Source: a virus
Direction: 5' to 3' (one strand)
DNA length: 21,699 bases
IMG/VR virus record: IMGVR_UViG_3300022921_000129
Coordinates: 1-21,699 of that record
Positions 1-16,993 of the stretch are shown here, piece by piece. Under the pieces are notes generated by a model that was not told the origin of the DNA, ran no database searches, and saw only the letters and a program-made list of their open reading frames with translations. The number at the start of each line of letters is the position of its first letter. Positions within the stretch are counted from its first letter, which is position 1. Both the position numbers and the translations under genes were made by a program.

Positions 1-169
1 AATCAAATTGAAGCAACTTATAAGTTGAGTTATTATTATCTATAGTATTGAACTTTATAGAAAGTGTGTCGCCTACGTATATAGGTAATCCATTTATAAA
101 GCTATGATCAAGATACATGTCTTGACCGTAGGTGATTGCTGATAGTAACAACAATAGTAGTTTTTTCAT
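1..169 (-). CDS. Exported protein of unknown function, partial (3' end outside window)
   Basis: The first 56 codons of a gene cut by the left window edge are visible. The start ATG at 169-167 overlaps the previous stop by four bases (ATGA), so the two are probably translated as a coupled pair. A strong signal peptide is visible (MKKLLLLLSAITYGQD, likely cut after YGQ), followed by a beta-prone, Asn-rich segment (INGLPIYVGDTLSIKFN). The frame stays open to position 1. Together with the preceding exported protein and the small membrane protein it forms an envelope-directed group at the end of the structural block. The function is unknown. Lysis accessory, spanin-like, or host-surface modification are all possible. 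Confidence 0.6.
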   Translation of the reverse strand, partial: MKKLLLLLLSAITYGQDMYLDHSFINGLPIYVGDTLSIKFNTIDNNNSTYKLLQFD

Positions 170-621
170 AGTTTTAGTTTCTTAATTATTTGTTCACAGA
201 GTTTTTTAAGAGCAACAGATACGCTTTGTTGATTAAACGTACCACCATTATTTAATACTATTGTAGATGTTATTATATTGTCAGCGGTTGCTTTGACTTT
301 TACTTTTTTTCTATTATACCTAGCTTCAGCTATAATTTCAACTTGATTATTAGTTTTAGAAAATACCGCAGCATTAGTAGACTTTCTAACTACACCAAAA
401 TACAATAAGTCAACCTCAAGGATTGACTCACTGTTTTCTACAAGATAGTATCCCTCATCTTGCACAAGTTCTTCTAGAATATTTTTTACACCAAATTCAA
501 GACTCCTATTACCCGATAAATCGCCGTGTATAATTTTATTGCTAACCTTCCCTATTGTTATTTCTTGGCAGAAAACATTTATTGTAAATAGTAAACTACT
601 TATTGCGATTATGTACTTCAT
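166..621 (-). CDS. Exported protein of unknown function
   Basis: This 151-residue protein has a clear signal peptide (residues 1-19: basic MKY, hydrophobic IIAISSLLFTINVF, then CQ). The FCQ ending is common at Bacteroidota cleavage sites. The Cys at 18 is not in a good lipobox, because Phe precedes it, so ordinary secretion is more likely than lipidation. The mature part alternates helix and strand. A helix near 40-55 (FGVKNILEELVQDEG) is followed by strands (ILEVDLLYFGVV, NQVEIIAEARY, KKVKVKATADNI) and a last helix (VALKKLCEQIIKKLKL). This loosely recalls small periplasmic CsgG/LpoB-type folds, but I do not claim homology. The start is set by the signal peptide and lies inside the preceding small membrane gene (26-base overlap). 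The stop overlaps the next start (ATGA). Confidence 0.75.
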   Translation of the reverse strand: MKYIIAISSLLFTINVFCQEITIGKVSNKIIHGDLSGNRSLEFGVKNILEELVQDEGYYLVENSESILEVDLLYFGVVRKSTNAAVFSKTNNQVEIIAEARYNRKKVKVKATADNIITSTIVLNNGGTFNQQSVSVALKKLCEQIIKKLKL

Positions 622-756: not shown

Positions 757-3700
757 TTAAATTTTCTTTTTAGCAGATTTTTTCTTTTTATAACCTACTT
801 TTGGTTTTTTGTTTTTTTCTTGTTTATTGACTTCTTTTAAGCCTAATTCCCATTGTCCCCAACCTAATGCTAATGCAATTGCTTGATAAGTTTGTATTTC
901 ATGTCTCACAGGGTAACTTAAATTATCCATTTTACGAATTAACCTATCAAGAGGAACGTTTGTAATTGCCGAAACAAATTTACCAGTCGCTTCAAAAGCT
1001 GGATTATCTAAACTAACACCTTCTGTTCTTACTTTTTCAAGTTCTTGTTTCCAAGTAAAAGTTCTAGCTCCTTGTTCCAGCCTACTAATTTTAGAAGATA
1101 TTGCTGGTGATAATGTTCCAATTTCAAGAATAACATCCTGGAAGTTTTTACGACCACCTTCACCATATTCGTTCATTGCTTCTTGAACAACATTCTTCAC
1201 CATAACCGCAATAGCGCCACCGTAACCAAGACCTCTACCAAAACCATCTATAGCAGAATTGATAACATTTACATATTTTTCTACTTCTTCATCATCTTCA
1301 TCTGGTTCATCGTCTAACCATAAAGAAAACAATGCTTGTTGCAAACCGGAGAACACAATATTTTGTACCATGCCGTAGTATAATACCTTGGACATGTTTG
1401 TTTTGAAGTCTCCGCGACCTGCTAATAAATCCAATGCTGCTTTCTTTGTAATACGAGCATACTGCATAGGTGTATTACCAAATGCAAGAACTAATCTACC
1501 TAATGTACTCGCTTGTTGTTGCGAAATTTTATCAGGTCTTGAAGATTGTTGAGATTCTTCTGCGTTTTCTTTCCAATCGTTATAAGCTTTCTCTTTTGCT
1601 TCAGATTCAGAAAGACCTTCACGCATATACGTATTAATTCTGTTTCTAAAGAATGGTGCTCCACCAAAAGCAATTGCAAATGAATCTGCAAATTGTGTAG
1701 GCAGGTAACCAGCTCTTAAAATAGCTGTAATAGCCGCCCCTGCTTTATTAGCACTACTTTCAGCTGATTTAGCAATGTCATCAGCCGCTACATCAATTTT
1801 AAGGCCATTTCTACGAGAAACTAGATAATCACTATTCATTAGCTCCATAACATCCTTAGAAAGCTGCGGTAGGTTAGCATAAGCTTGCGCAGCAGCAATA
1901 GGATTATTGTCGCTGAAGTTTATAAAGTTTACAAACGAAACCATTTGTAAGATTGCCGAGCGAGTATTGAAGAACATGATTGTTGCAATCGAACCATTAA
2001 TATAGTTTTCTAATTGAGAAACCAATCTATTTCTACCAAACTGACGTGATCTACCGACCTTCATTCTATAAAGTACATCACTTAACGCTTCAACATAGTT
2101 ATTACCAAATGCTGCTCTAAGCTTGTTAGCTAATGGACCTTGAATTTCACCTCTATTGTCCATTTTACCAAATGTTTCCTCAGCTACACTAATAAAGTCA
2201 GCAAAAAATTCTTTTCTTGCTTGTTCATTAATATGCTCTAAAATATCAATTGTTAAACTGCCTGAAGCCCAACTTTCTTGAGGTTGCGGAAAATCAGACA
2301 TAAGCATATTTTGAACTTGTCTAGAAAAATCTAATAACTCTTTATTATTGCTTACATATTCTCTTATCGCGCTAATTTCAGATTGATTAATACCAGGAAC
2401 CTCATATCCTAATTCATTCCACATAAAAACACGCAAGGCTTGCTCATTAGTAAAGCCCATTACAGCCTCTTTCTTTAAGCCGGCCGGAGTATTTCTAATG
2501 CTCTTTTTAAGTTTTCTATATGATTTAAGAGTATTCATTTTATATTCTTCATATACTCTTTGAGCTTTAGCAAATGGGTCAATCAACGTTTTCTTAATAA
2601 AAGCTAAATCAGCATCCCCCTGTCTTCCTTTACGTACTAAATAATACATTAGCCCCATAAAGTCATCAGCTGATGGTGGGATAAAGAATTTAAATCTACC
2701 TTTGTTTTTACCTAGCCGTCTTGCCTGGAATTCTGATATTTCAGATTTGTTTTCAATATTAAGCTTTTCAGAAACCATTTCGTTCAAGCTATTGTCAACC
2801 ATTTTTGTTAATGGTAATGCAATAGAAAGTTGAAAATTAGAAGCATTGCTAGCAACTACGTCCGCATTGTTTTCACGGGATAACCTTCTTATTTCTTTTA
2901 TTTTTTCAGCTCTATTTGCTGTTTTAAATCCCGTTGAATCAAGTATCTTTGCCATCCAAGAAGGAATAAACCAAACTTCAGGTTGTTTAAAAGTTGTTTT
3001 ATTTCCTCTTATTAAGTCCTTAAAGAATTGTTCTTCCATTCTAAGAGCAGAATTAACATGCTCCATGTAATATGTTGCGTCTTCAGAATATACTAGCCCA
3101 CCTATTTTAGCCCCGGCTTTTCTACCTTCTGCAATATTAGAAGAAGAAGCGTATATTATTTTTGCGTACTTTAATGCCCTAAGCTTTTCTTCAGGTGTAG
3201 GTAACGATGCTATATAGTCTTGCATTGCAATATTGAAAGCTTTAACATTGAGCATTCTAAGAAGATTTTTGTTTTTAGCATTTTCACTGCTAATTAATTC
3301 TTCTTTTTGTTTAAGAAATTCTTTTTTAGAAAGTCCTTGCAGCTTTTCATATATATTGTATCTAGTAGTTGCATTAAGTGTTTCTAATTTTGTAGCTTTA
3401 TTAAATTTTAGTTGATTTTGAACTTTTTTAATTTGCCCAAGAACTTCTTTTAATTCGTTTGAATATTTATTTTCACTTTTGTTTTCATCAAGTAAAATTT
3501 CTCTTTCAGACTTGTTTAAAGCACCTTGTGCAAATAAACCGGCAGCCTGTTTGTTGGATATTTTACCGTCTTTATCTTTAATTATTTTAACTTTACTGAC
3601 TTCACCGTTATCTTTTACCCATTTAACGCCAAAACCATTCACTCTATAGTGAAAACCAAGCATACTATTAATAAAGACTCTTTTTTTAGTTAATATGGGC

Positions 3701-6700
3701 GGCATAAAAGCCATAGGTCCTGCAATAAAATCAGTAAAATCAGCAAGATCTTCTAGTAGCCATGTTTGAGTGCCACTCGATTTGTCGGCGATCATTGTAC
3801 TAGAACTCGCAAGCTCGTTGATCATTTCTTCTGTAAGTCCCATTTTACGAAGAGCCGCTCTGTTCTTTTTTACAATTTTATCAAACGCAGGCTGATAATT
3901 TTTAGTGTCTTCAGTAGATAACGCAGCTTCTTGCGCAGCAGAAACAATACTTAATTGGAATTCAGATCTACCTGCGCCTATGTCAACTATTGTATTCTGA
4001 CTTGCTTGTTGATATTCTAATTCTTGTCTGACAGCAGTATTAGTCATTAATTTGCCTGTAAGTCTAGCTAAAGCAAATAATGCTTGTGCTCTTGGGTCCT
4101 GCCCGTTAAAAGAAATTTTTGTTCCATCAGGTTTAATACCAAATGCTTCAAAAAATTCTTCTTTTGTTATATCTTCTAATTTTGAAAAAGGATACAGCCC
4201 TTGATCTTGCTTTAATCTAGGATTTTTAATATAAAAAGCATCTAAAAGCTTTCTAGGCAATCCAGTACCAGTGCCTATTAATTTTTCAGAAGCAGCCTCT
4301 AATACTGCACCCTCAGGTAATAGCTTAATTAATTTATCTACATGCTCAATAACAAAATCTTGCATGGCTATTACTTGCCCTGTTGTTATATTAGTTTTTG
4401 GATTAACTAATTTTGCCGCAGGTATACCAACAGCTCTTTCAGTTATTTGGGGCGCTAAATCTTCTAGCTTTTTAAAGGTAACATCATTAACATCACCTAG
4501 ATTTTTTAATTCCTCTCTTATAATAGCTCTATATTCGTCTCTTGAATCTTCATCAAGAAACTCTATAGGGTTTATAAGTTCACCATTATTATCTACTAAT
4601 TCAATATCAAAACCATATTCGTCAATTTGCTCAAATTCATCTGCTATTTCATAGCTATCATCTGCGGCAAACTGTCTTCCAGAATCAATATCTTCTTCAA
4701 AAGTTTGAGTAGTTACTTTACCTTCTTTGAGTACTTGTTTTACTTTATTAGATATCTGCGAATTAATCCAGCCCTCTAAACTGTCATTCTTCGAAGGGTC
4801 AAAGTTTCTTATATGCTGAATCATTTTGTTCATGAATTCAGACTTAAAATCTTCAGGTAAAAATCCTGGAAGATCGCGAAGCATGGTGGTTTTACTCTTA
4901 TCAAACGGCTTAGCCATTTGCACTTCCGCTATTTTATCAAAGTAGTCTTCAAAATATAAATTAGCAATAACCTCATCAGCACCGCTTGCTTTCCATTCTT
5001 CTAAAGAGTTTGTAGTTACAAAAGAATTTACATCAACTTTAGACAATTGAATTTTAGGTTTTGATGCTCTAACATCAGCGGCTCTACCAATAGCATCTAA
5101 CGTTGCTTGGTTTAATTCGCCTTTAGAAACACTCTTTTGGTATTCTTTCATAAATTGGTAAACTTGCTTACCATTTTCAAAGCCTACTTGTTTAAATCCT
5201 AATGGTCTAAGTACTTTTGTTACAATGAAATCACCAATCTTATTAAATAAACCTTCGTTAAATTTAATTTGGTTTTTAGCTACTAAATCTGAAAATACAG
5301 TTAGTGTTTCATCATTAATAGCATCGGGCTTATAACCTCTTCTTTGTAGTTCGTTATCTAATGTATTTAAATCGTCTTTAGATAATTTTTTTCTAAAGTC
5401 ACTAATAATGCCGCCAAGTTTATCTTGACTTATCTTGGTATTTATAATACCATGCAATACTTCGTGAGCACCTACATTTATTTGTCCTGTTTTAGCCGCT
5501 ACTTGCTTATTGATATATATTTTACCGCCATAAGCAACGCCGCCTATATAATCAAGAGCATTGACTTCTTTATCACCAACTTTGATTTTTCTTTTAAGAA
5601 TATTTGTTTCAAGATCTTGTAAGGCTTCTTTGTCGCCCATAAAGTCCTTGAATAATTGTTTACGTATTGCTTCGGTGCTATCAAAGTCTTGCACTTCAAC
5701 CATGCCTTTTGTTTGTTCAGCAGCCCTCTTTGCAAAAGAAACAGTATCCGCTACTTTTCTTTGTTTAAGTATAACTTTAAGCTCTTCTGCTTTTTGTTCT
5801 ATTTCTTTTCTCTGCTCTTGAACAAGCTTAGTTGGTCTACCTTTACCAGGTTTATTTTCAGCTTGAATAGTTTTAATTTCTTCTTCTACTTCAGCTTTTC
5901 GTTCCTGTGCTGATAATGTTTTGTTGCTAGCTAACTTTGCTCTTTCAAGCTCTAATTCAGCAATGCGTGTTCTAGCCGCGTCGTCTGTAATATTTTTATC
6001 TACTAATGTTTTAAAACGAGCAACGCCTTGCTTGTCTAACATTTTGTTCTGTAGTAAATCGTCGTTTTCTACAGTTATATTAACCTTAGATAAATCCATG
6101 CCATCATTGTCATCAATAAATTTGTTGACTTCGGCTCTAGACATTTCTTTACCGTCAATTTTATATTTAGGTGATTTTGTTAAATTTCTAGCTGTTTGTA
6201 CTTGCCCTCCTATTGCTGTAGGACTCACTCCAAATACTTCAAGTACAGCTTCTTTAAAATCAAGTTCATCGCCAGCTGCTTTTTGAGCAGCAAGTTCACC
6301 TGTAAACTCTCCTGTAGTAGTTATAAGACCTTCTGCTGTTCCCGCCGCTACAGCACCCGCTTTTTTACTTACACCTTTAGCCAATGCTTTTTTACTAATA
6401 GCACCAGCTACTTTACTACCGCCGCCGGCAGCTACTAAATCAAATGCAGCAATCGTACCAGCTCTTGTAGCCGCCCTATTTCTCGCGCGTGTTAAAAGCT
6501 CTTCATCTTTAAATGCTTCTTGTATATCTTCAACAGTATAATCTTCTGGTAAAGATTCTCTTATAGTTTCACCAAAAGCTGCAAATAATTCAACAGAAGC
6601 GCCTAGCCCAGCCATAGCTCCTTTAATTGCGCCGCCGGCACCACCAATAGCCGTGCCAATGCCCGGTGCTACAGAACCTAATGCCGCACCTGCTCCTGCC

Positions 6701-7365
6701 GCGGTAGCTGCTCCAGCAGCACCTAACCCAATATTTTCTTTTGAAAACATCATAGCGAAACTTCTTGCTCCGTATAATAATGCAGCTTGAGGGTTTCTTA
6801 TAGTTGCGCCTACAGCTCCTGCAAACCAGTCAGGTACTATACCTGTGTTGGCAGTAGATATTGCGTCAAAGTCTTTCTCCCATTGTTCTTCTCCTTCTGT
6901 TAAGCCAGATGCATCTTGCTTTTGCCAAAGATCTAATAATTTTTGAGCATCTTCATCGCTTATATTTTCAGCATATTTATCAGAAAAAATAGCTTTAGAT
7001 AGGTAATCGTCTAAATCAGCTTGTATTTGACCTCCGGACCACGCTGTAGCCATTTGTTGAAAGAAATTATCTTTCTTTTCTTCAGCATCAGGATATTGGG
7101 CTAAAAATTTATCTGTTAGATTTTCTGGTATTTCATAAGTGTCATCACCTACTTTATATTTTTTAGTACGTGATACCGATGAAGTACTTTCCGATTTGGA
7201 TTCCATACCGGGCGCTGCAGTTTCTTCCACAGGCGCACCCGAAACCTGCGGTTGTGTCTTTCCCGCTTCTTCGTTTAAAACTGCATTTGGATATGCGGAT
7301 AAAAACTCTTGGACTTTGTCCTCGGGAATATTATAAATATCTTCTCCTACTTTATAAACAGGCAT
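757..7365 (-). CDS. Giant multidomain virion / ejection protein with HExxH metallopeptidase motif
   Basis: This 2202-residue protein takes up almost a third of the window. Visible parts in order are as follows. Two copies of a short motif (YKVG-D-Y-IPE then FL-YP-A) lie at residues 4-28 and 70-94, joined by a Ser/Glu/Thr-rich linker. Gly/Ala-rich hydrophobic stretches occupy about 212-265 and 296-362. A charged coiled coil runs from about 459 to 545. A zinc-peptidase-type motif GAHEVLHG has H634, E635 and H638. Long helical domains follow. The C-terminal region contains ILRAGYLPTQFADSFAIAFG and RLVLAFGNTPMQYARITKK, a hydrophobic segment near 1996-2020, an acidic patch (DDEPDEDDEEVE), and a Lys-rich end. 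Size, position after two smaller ejection candidates, and membrane-prone parts suggest a virion protein injected with the DNA, like T7 gp16, with a peptidase in place of a transglycosylase. It also resembles phage large polyvalent proteins. Enzyme activity is inferred. Confidence 0.75.
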   Translation of the reverse strand: MPVYKVGEDIYNIPEDKVQEFLSAYPNAVLNEEAGKTQPQVSGAPVEETAAPGMESKSESTSSVSRTKKYKVGDDTYEIPENLTDKFLAQYPDAEEKKDNFFQQMATAWSGGQIQADLDDYLSKAIFSDKYAENISDEDAQKLLDLWQKQDASGLTEGEEQWEKDFDAISTANTGIVPDWFAGAVGATIRNPQAALLYGARSFAMMFSKENIGLGAAGAATAAGAGAALGSVAPGIGTAIGGAGGAIKGAMAGLGASVELFAAFGETIRESLPEDYTVEDIQEAFKDEELLTRARNRAATRAGTIAAFDLVAAGGGSKVAGAISKKALAKGVSKKAGAVAAGTAEGLITTTGEFTGELAAQKAAGDELDFKEAVLEVFGVSPTAIGGQVQTARNLTKSPKYKIDGKEMSRAEVNKFIDDNDGMDLSKVNITVENDDLLQNKMLDKQGVARFKTLVDKNITDDAARTRIAELELERAKLASNKTLSAQERKAEVEEEIKTIQAENKPGKGRPTKLVQEQRKEIEQKAEELKVILKQRKVADTVSFAKRAAEQTKGMVEVQDFDSTEAIRKQLFKDFMGDKEALQDLETNILKRKIKVGDKEVNALDYIGGVAYGGKIYINKQVAAKTGQINVGAHEVLHGIINTKISQDKLGGIISDFRKKLSKDDLNTLDNELQRRGYKPDAINDETLTVFSDLVAKNQIKFNEGLFNKIGDFIVTKVLRPLGFKQVGFENGKQVYQFMKEYQKSVSKGELNQATLDAIGRAADVRASKPKIQLSKVDVNSFVTTNSLEEWKASGADEVIANLYFEDYFDKIAEVQMAKPFDKSKTTMLRDLPGFLPEDFKSEFMNKMIQHIRNFDPSKNDSLEGWINSQISNKVKQVLKEGKVTTQTFEEDIDSGRQFAADDSYEIADEFEQIDEYGFDIELVDNNGELINPIEFLDEDSRDEYRAIIREELKNLGDVNDVTFKKLEDLAPQITERAVGIPAAKLVNPKTNITTGQVIAMQDFVIEHVDKLIKLLPEGAVLEAASEKLIGTGTGLPRKLLDAFYIKNPRLKQDQGLYPFSKLEDITKEEFFEAFGIKPDGTKISFNGQDPRAQALFALARLTGKLMTNTAVRQELEYQQASQNTIVDIGAGRSEFQLSIVSAAQEAALSTEDTKNYQPAFDKIVKKNRAALRKMGLTEEMINELASSSTMIADKSSGTQTWLLEDLADFTDFIAGPMAFMPPILTKKRVFINSMLGFHYRVNGFGVKWVKDNGEVSKVKIIKDKDGKISNKQAAGLFAQGALNKSEREILLDENKSENKYSNELKEVLGQIKKVQNQLKFNKATKLETLNATTRYNIYEKLQGLSKKEFLKQKEELISSENAKNKNLLRMLNVKAFNIAMQDYIASLPTPEEKLRALKYAKIIYASSSNIAEGRKAGAKIGGLVYSEDATYYMEHVNSALRMEEQFFKDLIRGNKTTFKQPEVWFIPSWMAKILDSTGFKTANRAEKIKEIRRLSRENNADVVASNASNFQLSIALPLTKMVDNSLNEMVSEKLNIENKSEISEFQARRLGKNKGRFKFFIPPSADDFMGLMYYLVRKGRQGDADLAFIKKTLIDPFAKAQRVYEEYKMNTLKSYRKLKKSIRNTPAGLKKEAVMGFTNEQALRVFMWNELGYEVPGINQSEISAIREYVSNNKELLDFSRQVQNMLMSDFPQPQESWASGSLTIDILEHINEQARKEFFADFISVAEETFGKMDNRGEIQGPLANKLRAAFGNNYVEALSDVLYRMKVGRSRQFGRNRLVSQLENYINGSIATIMFFNTRSAILQMVSFVNFINFSDNNPIAAAQAYANLPQLSKDVMELMNSDYLVSRRNGLKIDVAADDIAKSAESSANKAGAAITAILRAGYLPTQFADSFAIAFGGAPFFRNRINTYMREGLSESEAKEKAYNDWKENAEESQQSSRPDKISQQQASTLGRLVLAFGNTPMQYARITKKAALDLLAGRGDFKTNMSKVLYYGMVQNIVFSGLQQALFSLWLDDEPDEDDEEVEKYVNVINSAIDGFGRGLGYGGAIAVMVKNVVQEAMNEYGEGGRKNFQDVILEIGTLSPAISSKISRLEQGARTFTWKQELEKVRTEGVSLDNPAFEATGKFVSAITNVPLDRLIRKMDNLSYPVRHEIQTYQAIALALGWGQWELGLKEVNKQEKNKKPKVGYKKKKSAKKKI

Positions 7366-15592: not shown

Positions 15593-16993
15593 TTATTGGA
15601 AAAGGATAAAGTTGTTAGCTCCTTGAACCACTAGACATCTTTCAGATAGGAAGTGTACCTCCATTGCATCAAGATCGCTAGTTTGAGCACCAACCGAACC
15701 AGTAACCCAAGACTTCATTCTACGATTATCAGCCTCAGAAGCACGGTAACGTACGTGTAGGAACGGACGCTTAATGTTTTTACCAAGGATTTGATCGTAT
15801 ACTGATGAAGTTCCAGCAGGTACTAATACTCCTTTAACACCAGAGATTTGTCCACGAGTTGCGTGGTCGTTTAGATATTTCCAGTCAGTTTTGTAGAAAT
15901 CGTAAGATCCACGACGGAAACCTCTAAATCCTAGGTTAAGTGCCATATCCTCAGAGTTAGAGAATACACCATAAGCAGTACCACCAGCAGAACCAGCAGA
16001 AATGTTAGCTAAAGCGTCATCGAAGATAAGGTTTGAAGCACGATTTAAGAAAAGCATGTTTTCTTCAATAGCACCTTGCTTATCAAGCTCAGCTAATAAA
16101 GTATCAAAGTCAGCGATAAGGTCACTTGCAACATCAAATACGTTGTCAGCAGTGATACCTCTGTCTTCAATTTGCTTGAAGAAACCGTCAGTACCTTTAA
16201 GACCAGCGCCTAAAGCAGCAGAACCAGTAGCAGCTTTTTCAGCTTCTACCATAGTCATTTCAAGGTAGTCCTCATAACGAGTACGAGTATCACCAAGAGC
16301 TTTTAAATACCATAAGTATCCTGTTTGTCCGTCTTCACCAGTTACTTCAACCCAACCAATTTGAGAAGCGTCAGATCCTGAAACCTCAAATTTGTCTTTA
16401 ATAATGATTGGGGTGTTAGTGAAAGATTCGAATTTAGGCTCTACAGAACCGCTCATTCCAGCAGTACCTTTTTTGAATTCAGAACCAAATACGAAAAGTT
16501 TTACAGCCTCACCATCAGCAAAACCAGCAGCAGCTAGTGTAGCAGCAGAGTAAGGAAGTACAGTGATAGTATCAAGATCACCATCAGAGTCAGCATCAGA
16601 AGTTGCAGATACATAACCTTTAACAACGTTTCCGTTAGCATCCTCGATAACAACAGTTTGTCCAACGCGCACAACGTGTCCTTCACCGATGTTAACAGTT
16701 CCAGAAGCAGCAGTAGTCACAGTTCCTGAATAGAAAATGTGAAGACGACCTTGCTCAGACCAAATAACTTGATCAGAAGACATAGGCATTTCAGCTCCAA
16801 CCATACGAAGGAAAGAAGAGATTGAACGGTTACCGTAACGCTCTACTTCAGCCTCATATAGATCTGGAAGGTATTGTTGAGACCAGTTAGCTCCACCGGA
16901 CCCGTGGAAGTTTAAGTAGTTGCTTGAAAGCGCAACTTTTTGTACATACGGAGTAAATTCCGCAGGTGTACCTAAATTAGCAATTGCAGCCAT
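15593..16993 (-). CDS. Major capsid protein (HK97-fold type)
   Basis: This is the 466-residue major head protein. The N-terminal segment (about 22-90) has the pattern of marine Bacteroidetes-phage capsid proteins: SSNYLN, NWSQQYLPDLYEAEVERYG, then SISSFLR and QVIWSEQGRLH. Residues about 92-175 form a beta-rich insertion with a DADSDGDLD loop (133-141). The stretch from about 230 onward alternates helices and strands as expected for the A and P domains. Codon use differs from the neighbours: Arg is mostly CGT, and Gly GGT, Ala GCT and Phe TTC are frequent, as in very highly expressed genes. The leader ends in an A-run before ATG. A long hairpin follows the stop by about eight bases. Scaffold upstream and connector genes downstream support the call. 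No obvious N-terminal propeptide is seen. Confidence 0.88.
   Translation of the reverse strand: MAAIANLGTPAEFTPYVQKVALSSNYLNFHGSGGANWSQQYLPDLYEAEVERYGNRSISSFLRMVGAEMPMSSDQVIWSEQGRLHIFYSGTVTTAASGTVNIGEGHVVRVGQTVVIEDANGNVVKGYVSATSDADSDGDLDTITVLPYSAATLAAAGFADGEAVKLFVFGSEFKKGTAGMSGSVEPKFESFTNTPIIIKDKFEVSGSDASQIGWVEVTGEDGQTGYLWYLKALGDTRTRYEDYLEMTMVEAEKAATGSAALGAGLKGTDGFFKQIEDRGITADNVFDVASDLIADFDTLLAELDKQGAIEENMLFLNRASNLIFDDALANISAGSAGGTAYGVFSNSEDMALNLGFRGFRRGSYDFYKTDWKYLNDHATRGQISGVKGVLVPAGTSSVYDQILGKNIKRPFLHVRYRASEADNRRMKSWVTGSVGAQTSDLDAMEVHFLSERCLVVQGANNFILFQ

Follow-up and report, generated by a model that had tools for sequence, protein, structure and literature searches.

A giant modular phage protein with an embedded gluzincin-type domain and candidate self-cleavage motifs at its module borders

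The marine phage record IMGVR_UViG_3300022921_000129, a 21.7-kb stretch of DNA analysed over its whole length (positions 1 to 21,699; hereafter the window), encodes a giant modular protein of 2202 residues. At a probability of roughly 0.55, we read this giant as a virion-carried polyvalent polyprotein, in which an embedded zinc-peptidase domain (zincin) cuts its own chain at short motifs that mark the borders of its modules, one of the resulting pieces being sigma factor-like.

How might such a protein operate? It would be packaged in the virion and ejected with the DNA. The zincin (residues ~600-771) would hold zinc through H634, H638 and E686, with water activated by E635, and would cut the same chain at borders of the form phi-[QKM]-[FLYA]-S-[KRLI] (residues 771-776, 1135-1140 and 1510-1515). 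Four pieces would result: an N-terminal part with the protease, a second piece of ~360 residues comprising a sigma region-2-like domain and a helical domain, a variable part of ~375 residues, and a conserved core of ~690 residues that would serve in packaging or ejection. Once freed, the pieces would act apart, and the sigma-like one may help early transcription; cutting might take place either in the capsid or after entry.

A gluzincin-type domain in most giants of the family

Direct tblastn searches of 50,697 phage records, with the whole giant and with the zincin as queries, yielded nothing of use, and a plain protein scan of IMG/VR with the giant returned only a near-identical contig. Relatives were reached by way of a conserved tail protein (80 loci) and then of the giant's own C-terminal core: when the giant was searched against the 80 tail-protein loci, many records turned out to match residues ~1510-2200 at 36-45% identity, the remainder of the protein being variable. 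Searching IMG/VR with a profile built on this core brought in more than 500 stretches, of which the best 80 (41-53% identity in the core) provided set 1; a second core profile, built outward from a divergent member, added 80 more as a hold-out. After removal of near-copies, set 1 comprised 78 proteins (window included) and the hold-out 54, making 132 non-redundant giants. An alignment of only two sequences, the second being elemoE, offered too little to go on, and this larger set took its place.

The preliminary description of the window, made from its sequence without database searches, had placed an HEVLH motif at residues 634-638, and this is borne out (GAHEVLHG being residues 632-639, bases 5449-5472). 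The motif is not a chance occurrence, since the 8 His and 179 Glu among the 2202 residues of the giant predict only 0.0024 HExxH. The same pattern is present in the non-core (variable) part of 69 of the 78 giants in set 1 and 53 of the 54 in the hold-out (122/132 in all), compared with a mean of 0.68 proteins expected among the 132 when the same sequences are shuffled. H634, E635 and H638, whose invariance among homologues the preliminary description had proposed as a check, are indeed invariant in a 55-sequence alignment (A6), although its members are only about 15-32% identical to the window, and together with E686 they are its sole invariant columns. E686 is also the candidate for the third zinc ligand that the preliminary description had suggested seeking downstream: this position is Glu in 70/70 aligned domains of set 1 and in 53/54 rows of the hold-out alignment. 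A little further on, position 693 is nearly always acidic (D 43, E 26, S 1 in set 1; D 33, E 18, N 2, Q 1 in the hold-out).

In an AlphaFold model of the domain (mean predicted local distance difference test score, pLDDT, 70), the order is beta strands, the HExxH helix (model residues 72-85, containing H75, E76 and H79), two helices and the E686 helix (E127 of the model, in helix 126-137), with HExxH and E686 in separate predicted helices behind a beta-sheet; the helical setting anticipated for the motif is thereby recovered in the prediction. Foldseek found no significant match to this model in the PDB. With VIA-align, the top four rows were lethal-factor-type chains and Pro-Pro endopeptidase (PPEP), at Z 4.3-4.7 over 140-163 residues, and unrelated rows appeared at Z 3.0 or less; these Z values are low, and no sequence relation to either kind of zincin was found, so the resemblance serves as a fold lead only. 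The weak Pfam matches of family members are mostly to zincin families (Peptidase_M78, DUF6782, SprT-like, DUF3267), and there is also a match to PHROG 87 ('metallo-protease').

The preliminary description allowed either a gluzincin or a metzincin. The third-ligand candidate is a glutamate rather than a histidine, and therefore the site is of gluzincin type; the third His of the metzincin signature HExxHxxGxxH is missing at the corresponding place (window sequence HEVLHGIINTKI), and the metzincin alternative falls away. We regard the identity of the domain as a zincin with a gluzincin-type site as well supported, and its sequence makes it a probable zinc-binding peptidase.

Further histidine motifs occur in some relatives. 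Six giants (L136, L140, L146, L165, L171 and L204) have a second one, [AVR]HE[KE].H, near the C terminus downstream of the core, which may be a second small zinc site, and the giant of the Manatee Spring phage (MW202828.1, 741-12320, minus strand; 3859 residues) has two HExxH, at residues 1615 and 2500.

A recurrent motif at module borders

Upstream of the core, the tripeptide QLS occurs exactly three times in the window giant, always after I or F. Three occurrences of [IF]QLS compare with 0.037 expected by composition, and none of 20,000 shuffles reached three. Their positions are those of the end of the zincin block (residue 771), the end of the block at residues 930-1139 and the start of the core (~1516), these borders having come from separate homology searches. 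The motif also stands directly before the core in seven relatives (L119, L123, L124, L129, L131, L137 and L159).

In the HExxH-containing giants of set 1, the form phi-[KQ]-F-S-[KLRTI] was found 74 times (19 expected), and in the hold-out 40 times (14.5 expected; the maximum of 100 shuffles was 31), with a single hold-out occurrence in the cores. A BLAST homology-block end lay within 12 residues of 94% of the KF/QF sites in set 1, with a mean of 9.25 ends per site against 1.79 at random places; the corresponding values in the hold-out were 91%, 17.0 and 3.3. Scrambled or altered motifs showed no excess at block borders in either set. At the position of motif 2, aligned relatives have FQLSI, LQFSK, LMFSK, IMYSR, LLFSR, VMLSK, AMFSL or IMASK, and these variants suggest the more general form given above. 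Being recurrent, short and confined to the module borders of a peptidase-bearing protein, the motifs look like cis-cleavage sites, and we treat them as candidates at which the chain may be cut.

A sigma-like domain and other cargo

Between border motifs 1 and 2 lies a domain (residues ~795-885) strongly predicted to have the fold of sigma factor region 2. The Pfam family Sigma70_r2 matches it with E 0.0013 and 18.9 bits, below the curated cut-off of 24. When a model of residues 795-1145 (pLDDT about 45-75 in the sigma-like part) was compared by VIA-align, the first 26 rows were all sigma factors, the best with Z 9.0 and a root-mean-square deviation of 2.0 Å across 78 residues, whereas unrelated structures began at Z 4.2; Foldseek E-values for the same model against the PDB were not significant. 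A profile of the domain finds 59 of the 132 giants, mostly 110-250 residues past HExxH. Sigma region 4, which recognizes the -35 element, was not seen in Pfam scans or among the fold rows. The sigma-like piece, if freed, might engage the host RNA polymerase.

With the zincin, the sigma-2-like domain, a helical block and the core all in one giant beside portal, major capsid protein (MCP) and tail genes, the protein is polyvalent in the sense of Iyer et al. (2017; PMC5512222), for whom such a mixture of activities is the defining trait. Relatives carry other cargo. In one giant open reading frame (L188), residues ~785-953, after the zincin, form a Zeta-toxin/AAA_33-like kinase (Pfam E 4.7e-12 and 4.8e-13), and one member has an ART-PolyVal match. 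Many relatives (e.g. L114 and L120) have, directly upstream of the core, a conserved stretch DFDDTLA...LTAR...GYNDFYFADD that was not seen in the window giant, and which reads like a phosphatase of the haloacid dehalogenase (HAD) type. Matches to EcoEI_R_C, GvpG and Cadherin in Pfam were judged to be due to chance.

Possible self-processing and its alternatives

The preliminary description had listed several roles for the peptidase: cutting envelope proteins or peptidoglycan cross-links during entry, maturing other virion proteins, or acting in the cytoplasm after injection. Of these, a target among the virion proteins or within the cell, as put forward for large polyvalent proteins, fits best, in the particular form of self-processing, the candidate sites being at the giant's own module borders; for the cutting of cross-links or envelope proteins no positive evidence emerged. 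In 2 of 12 relatives (L122 and L125) the core is a gene separate from the zincin-bearing part, a split that fits with parts able to act apart, but that may be a sequencing frameshift. A more elaborate scenario, in which marine flavobacterial-type podoviruses inject a polyprotein whose own sequence-specific zinc protease cuts at the border motifs and frees a virion-delivered sigma-like protein that redirects the host RNA polymerase in the first minutes of infection, is one that we advance only tentatively, and would ourselves bet against.

Could the zincin instead be an injected effector that cuts host proteins (of transcription, defence or envelope-stress systems, for example), the border motifs being docking or packaging tags or similar? 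Host targeting is listed as an option for zincins by Iyer et al. (2017; PMC5512222) and in a jumbo-phage survey, the kinase-like and ART-PolyVal domains of relatives are themselves likely effectors, and coliphage N4 illustrates that a zincin-like domain can stay in an unprocessed chain (PMC5512222). Yet the zincin is found in almost every family member, unlike the patchily distributed cargo domains, which suggests a general role in handling the chain, and the motif marks block borders specifically; we think an effector unlikely. Maturation of other head or ejection proteins within the virion, by a peptidase spent before infection, is in our view improbable: maturation proteases are common in phages, and an uncharacterized zincin has been suggested for such a role in group 1 jumbo phages (jumbo-phage survey), but among the other proteins of the window the border motif occurs only once (QFSE, in a 1189-residue tail protein), and the domain is part of the giant rather than a separate protease of the head locus.

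The border coincidence, which concerns the giant's own joints, argues likewise against a role in entry through attack on envelope proteins or peptidoglycan cross-links. Podovirus ejection proteins do often carry cell-wall enzymes, but family scans found no known cell-wall lytic family in the giant, and the structural leads are to protein-cutting zincins; to this idea we give slightly less credence than to maturation. Least probable of all, by a small step further, seems a zincin fold retained for structure or zinc binding and catalytically silent, with the motifs as linker peptides or binding sites. The C1 domain of N4 is a precedent of sorts, having HExxH without reported activity in the available part of its description (PMC12633501), but in the present family the catalytic Glu and the three ligands are invariant at the low identities given above.

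Several observations weigh against self-processing. The giants are phylogenetically related, so all of the counts above overstate independence, and Pfam matches to zincin families are weak, falling short of the cut-offs. In N4, which offers the best-studied analogue bearing a zincin-like domain, the virion RNA polymerase goes into the particle without being processed (PMC5512222). Three giants (L174, L175 and L185) have no recognizable HExxH or zincin-profile match, yet have KFSK motifs; they may use another protease, or one acting in trans. Finally, motifs within one protein agreed in having Q or K in 95 of 109 pairs in set 1 (56.8 expected), but this was not reproduced in the hold-out (25/41 against 20.6; about p 0.1), and the idea of a lineage-specific Q-or-K code, having failed there, has been dropped from the argument. 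In phylogenetic trees, the Q/K label tracks zincin and core about equally well, and comparing the zincin tree with that of the core left coevolution with the protease indistinguishable from shared ancestry. A test of the motif on PF18818 proteins in 198 genomes of one phylum was unusable, most being short open frames.

Relation to known systems

That polyvalent proteins may be processed by zincins embedded in them was proposed by Iyer et al. (2017; PMC5512222), so this part of our reading, like the structural example provided by N4 (PMC12633501), is already in print. The metallopeptidase (MPTase) domains that they describe have, like ours, an HExxH helix and a Glu in a later helix, within very large multidomain phage proteins beside virion genes. 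Unlike MPTase-PolyVal, our domain lacks a PF18818 match: that family appeared neither when the window domain was scanned with Pfam nor among the 25 families listed when 55 members (the window domain plus 54 relatives) were scanned. The available parts of the 2017 paper name no cleavage motif, and its main text does not contain the word 'sigma'; because no recognition site is given there, the self-processing idea has been hard to test. The family defined by zincin and core supplies over 100 diverse examples, together with a candidate cleavage motif supported statistically in the hold-out, predicted fragments and an isolated phage (Gundel_1, below) with a homologue.

The virion RNA polymerase of N4 is also very large, is ejected (as the window giant probably is) and harbours a zincin-like domain with HExxH, C1 (PMC12633501), but the window giant has no recognized T7-like RNA polymerase module (Pfam, PHROGs and NCBIfam), and has a sigma-2-like domain. 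DdrB of phage P1 is likewise a polyvalent protein with an MPTase, and is processed before packaging (PMC5512222); it belongs to another phage group, and no DdrB-ParB domain was found in the giant (as compared by Pfam and PHROGs only). Residues ~795-885 match structurally the sigma-2-type late sigma factor gp55 of phage T4 (7d7c_F, Z 6.8). Whereas T4 gp55 is made during infection, the sigma-like domain of the window lies inside a probable virion protein. If the reading holds, carrying such a domain within a virion protein would give the phage an uncommon means of seizing control of host transcription. We found no report of one in the open-access literature, which is weak evidence of absence because the search covered open papers only. 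Three things appear to be new: the border motif in its role of candidate cleavage site, the pairing of zincin with core throughout nearly all of this phage group, and a sigma-2-like domain in such a protein.

Genomic setting and packaging

The gene order on the minus strand is terminase, portal, a probable scaffold-like gene, MCP, tail genes, the 1189-residue tail protein, two small proteins and the giant (Table 1), whose position resembles that of the giant last genes of Elemovirus, Callevirus and Maribacter phage Panino. The MCP has 39-51% identity to those of these three and of the Manatee Spring podovirus, and by this sequence the phage is placed near Elemovirus, Callevirus and Panino. Metagenome-assembled genome contigs that bear the core fall in Flavobacteriaceae, Sphingobacteriales and Cryomorphaceae bins (and also in bins of other groups, which may be contamination), so a host among the Bacteroidota is likely.

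Table 1. Features of the window, with coordinates and basis of assignment
Feature	Coordinates	Strand	Basis or remark
Giant modular protein, 2202 residues	757..7365	-	Open reading frame including stop codon; downstream of portal, MCP and tail genes
Zincin domain, residues ~600-771	5053..5568	-	Homology block in 44 relatives (simple phmmer); AlphaFold pLDDT 88-94 over catalytic helices
HEVLH, residues 634-638	5452..5466	-	H634 and H638 predicted zinc ligands, E635 predicted general base
E686 (INDETLTVFSD)	5308..5310	-	Third zinc ligand candidate; conservation, predicted helix
D693	5287..5289	-	Possible active-site residue; D/E in nearly all relatives
Border motif 1, KIQLSK, residues 771-776	5038..5055	-	Candidate cleavage site after zincin
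Sigma factor region-2-like domain, residues ~795-885	4711..4983	-	VIA-align fold; sub-threshold Pfam Sigma70_r2
Helical block, residues 930-1139	3949..4578	-	Aligned in 18 relatives; pLDDT 78-95 through most
Border motif 2, EFQLSI, residues 1135-1140	3946..3963	-	End of 930-1139 block
Border motif 3, NFQLSI, residues 1510-1515	2821..2838	-	Directly before conserved core
Conserved C-terminal core, residues 1516-2202	760..2820	-	Identity across relatives
Upstream neighbour of giant, 426 residues	7378..8658	-	Position only; without family match
Gln/Ala-rich protein, 220 residues	8673..9335	-	Syntenic relatives annotated virion structural protein
Major capsid protein	15593..16993	-	PHROG 13704, E 2.6e-104

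The preliminary description had called the giant an ejection-type protein, and this sits well with the portal, MCP and tail genes alongside and with a homologue in Tenacibaculum phage Gundel_1, an annotated 'structural protein' of 2482 residues that has HEFGH at 1337, KFST ~70 residues later and a core match of E 5e-12. The giant is probably carried in the phage particle, and would be injected from it. At the same locus in phage phi40:1, gp101 was found by tandem mass spectrometry; it was considered as a homologue of the giant and set aside, the relation being one of synteny only, with no core match. Judged from its position alone, the 426-residue neighbour is a probable second internal or ejection protein.

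Downstream of the giant gene (166-621, minus strand) is a gene for a 151-residue protein with an N-terminal signal-like segment and a weak Lipoprotein_16 match (E 0.0027). At the N terminus of the giant itself, a short repeat, YKVG(E/D)D.Y.IPE, occurs twice (residues 4-29 and 70-95, bases 7279-7356 and 7081-7158, minus strand); it is matched at the N terminus of ~15 relatives, and is possibly a packaging or docking tag.

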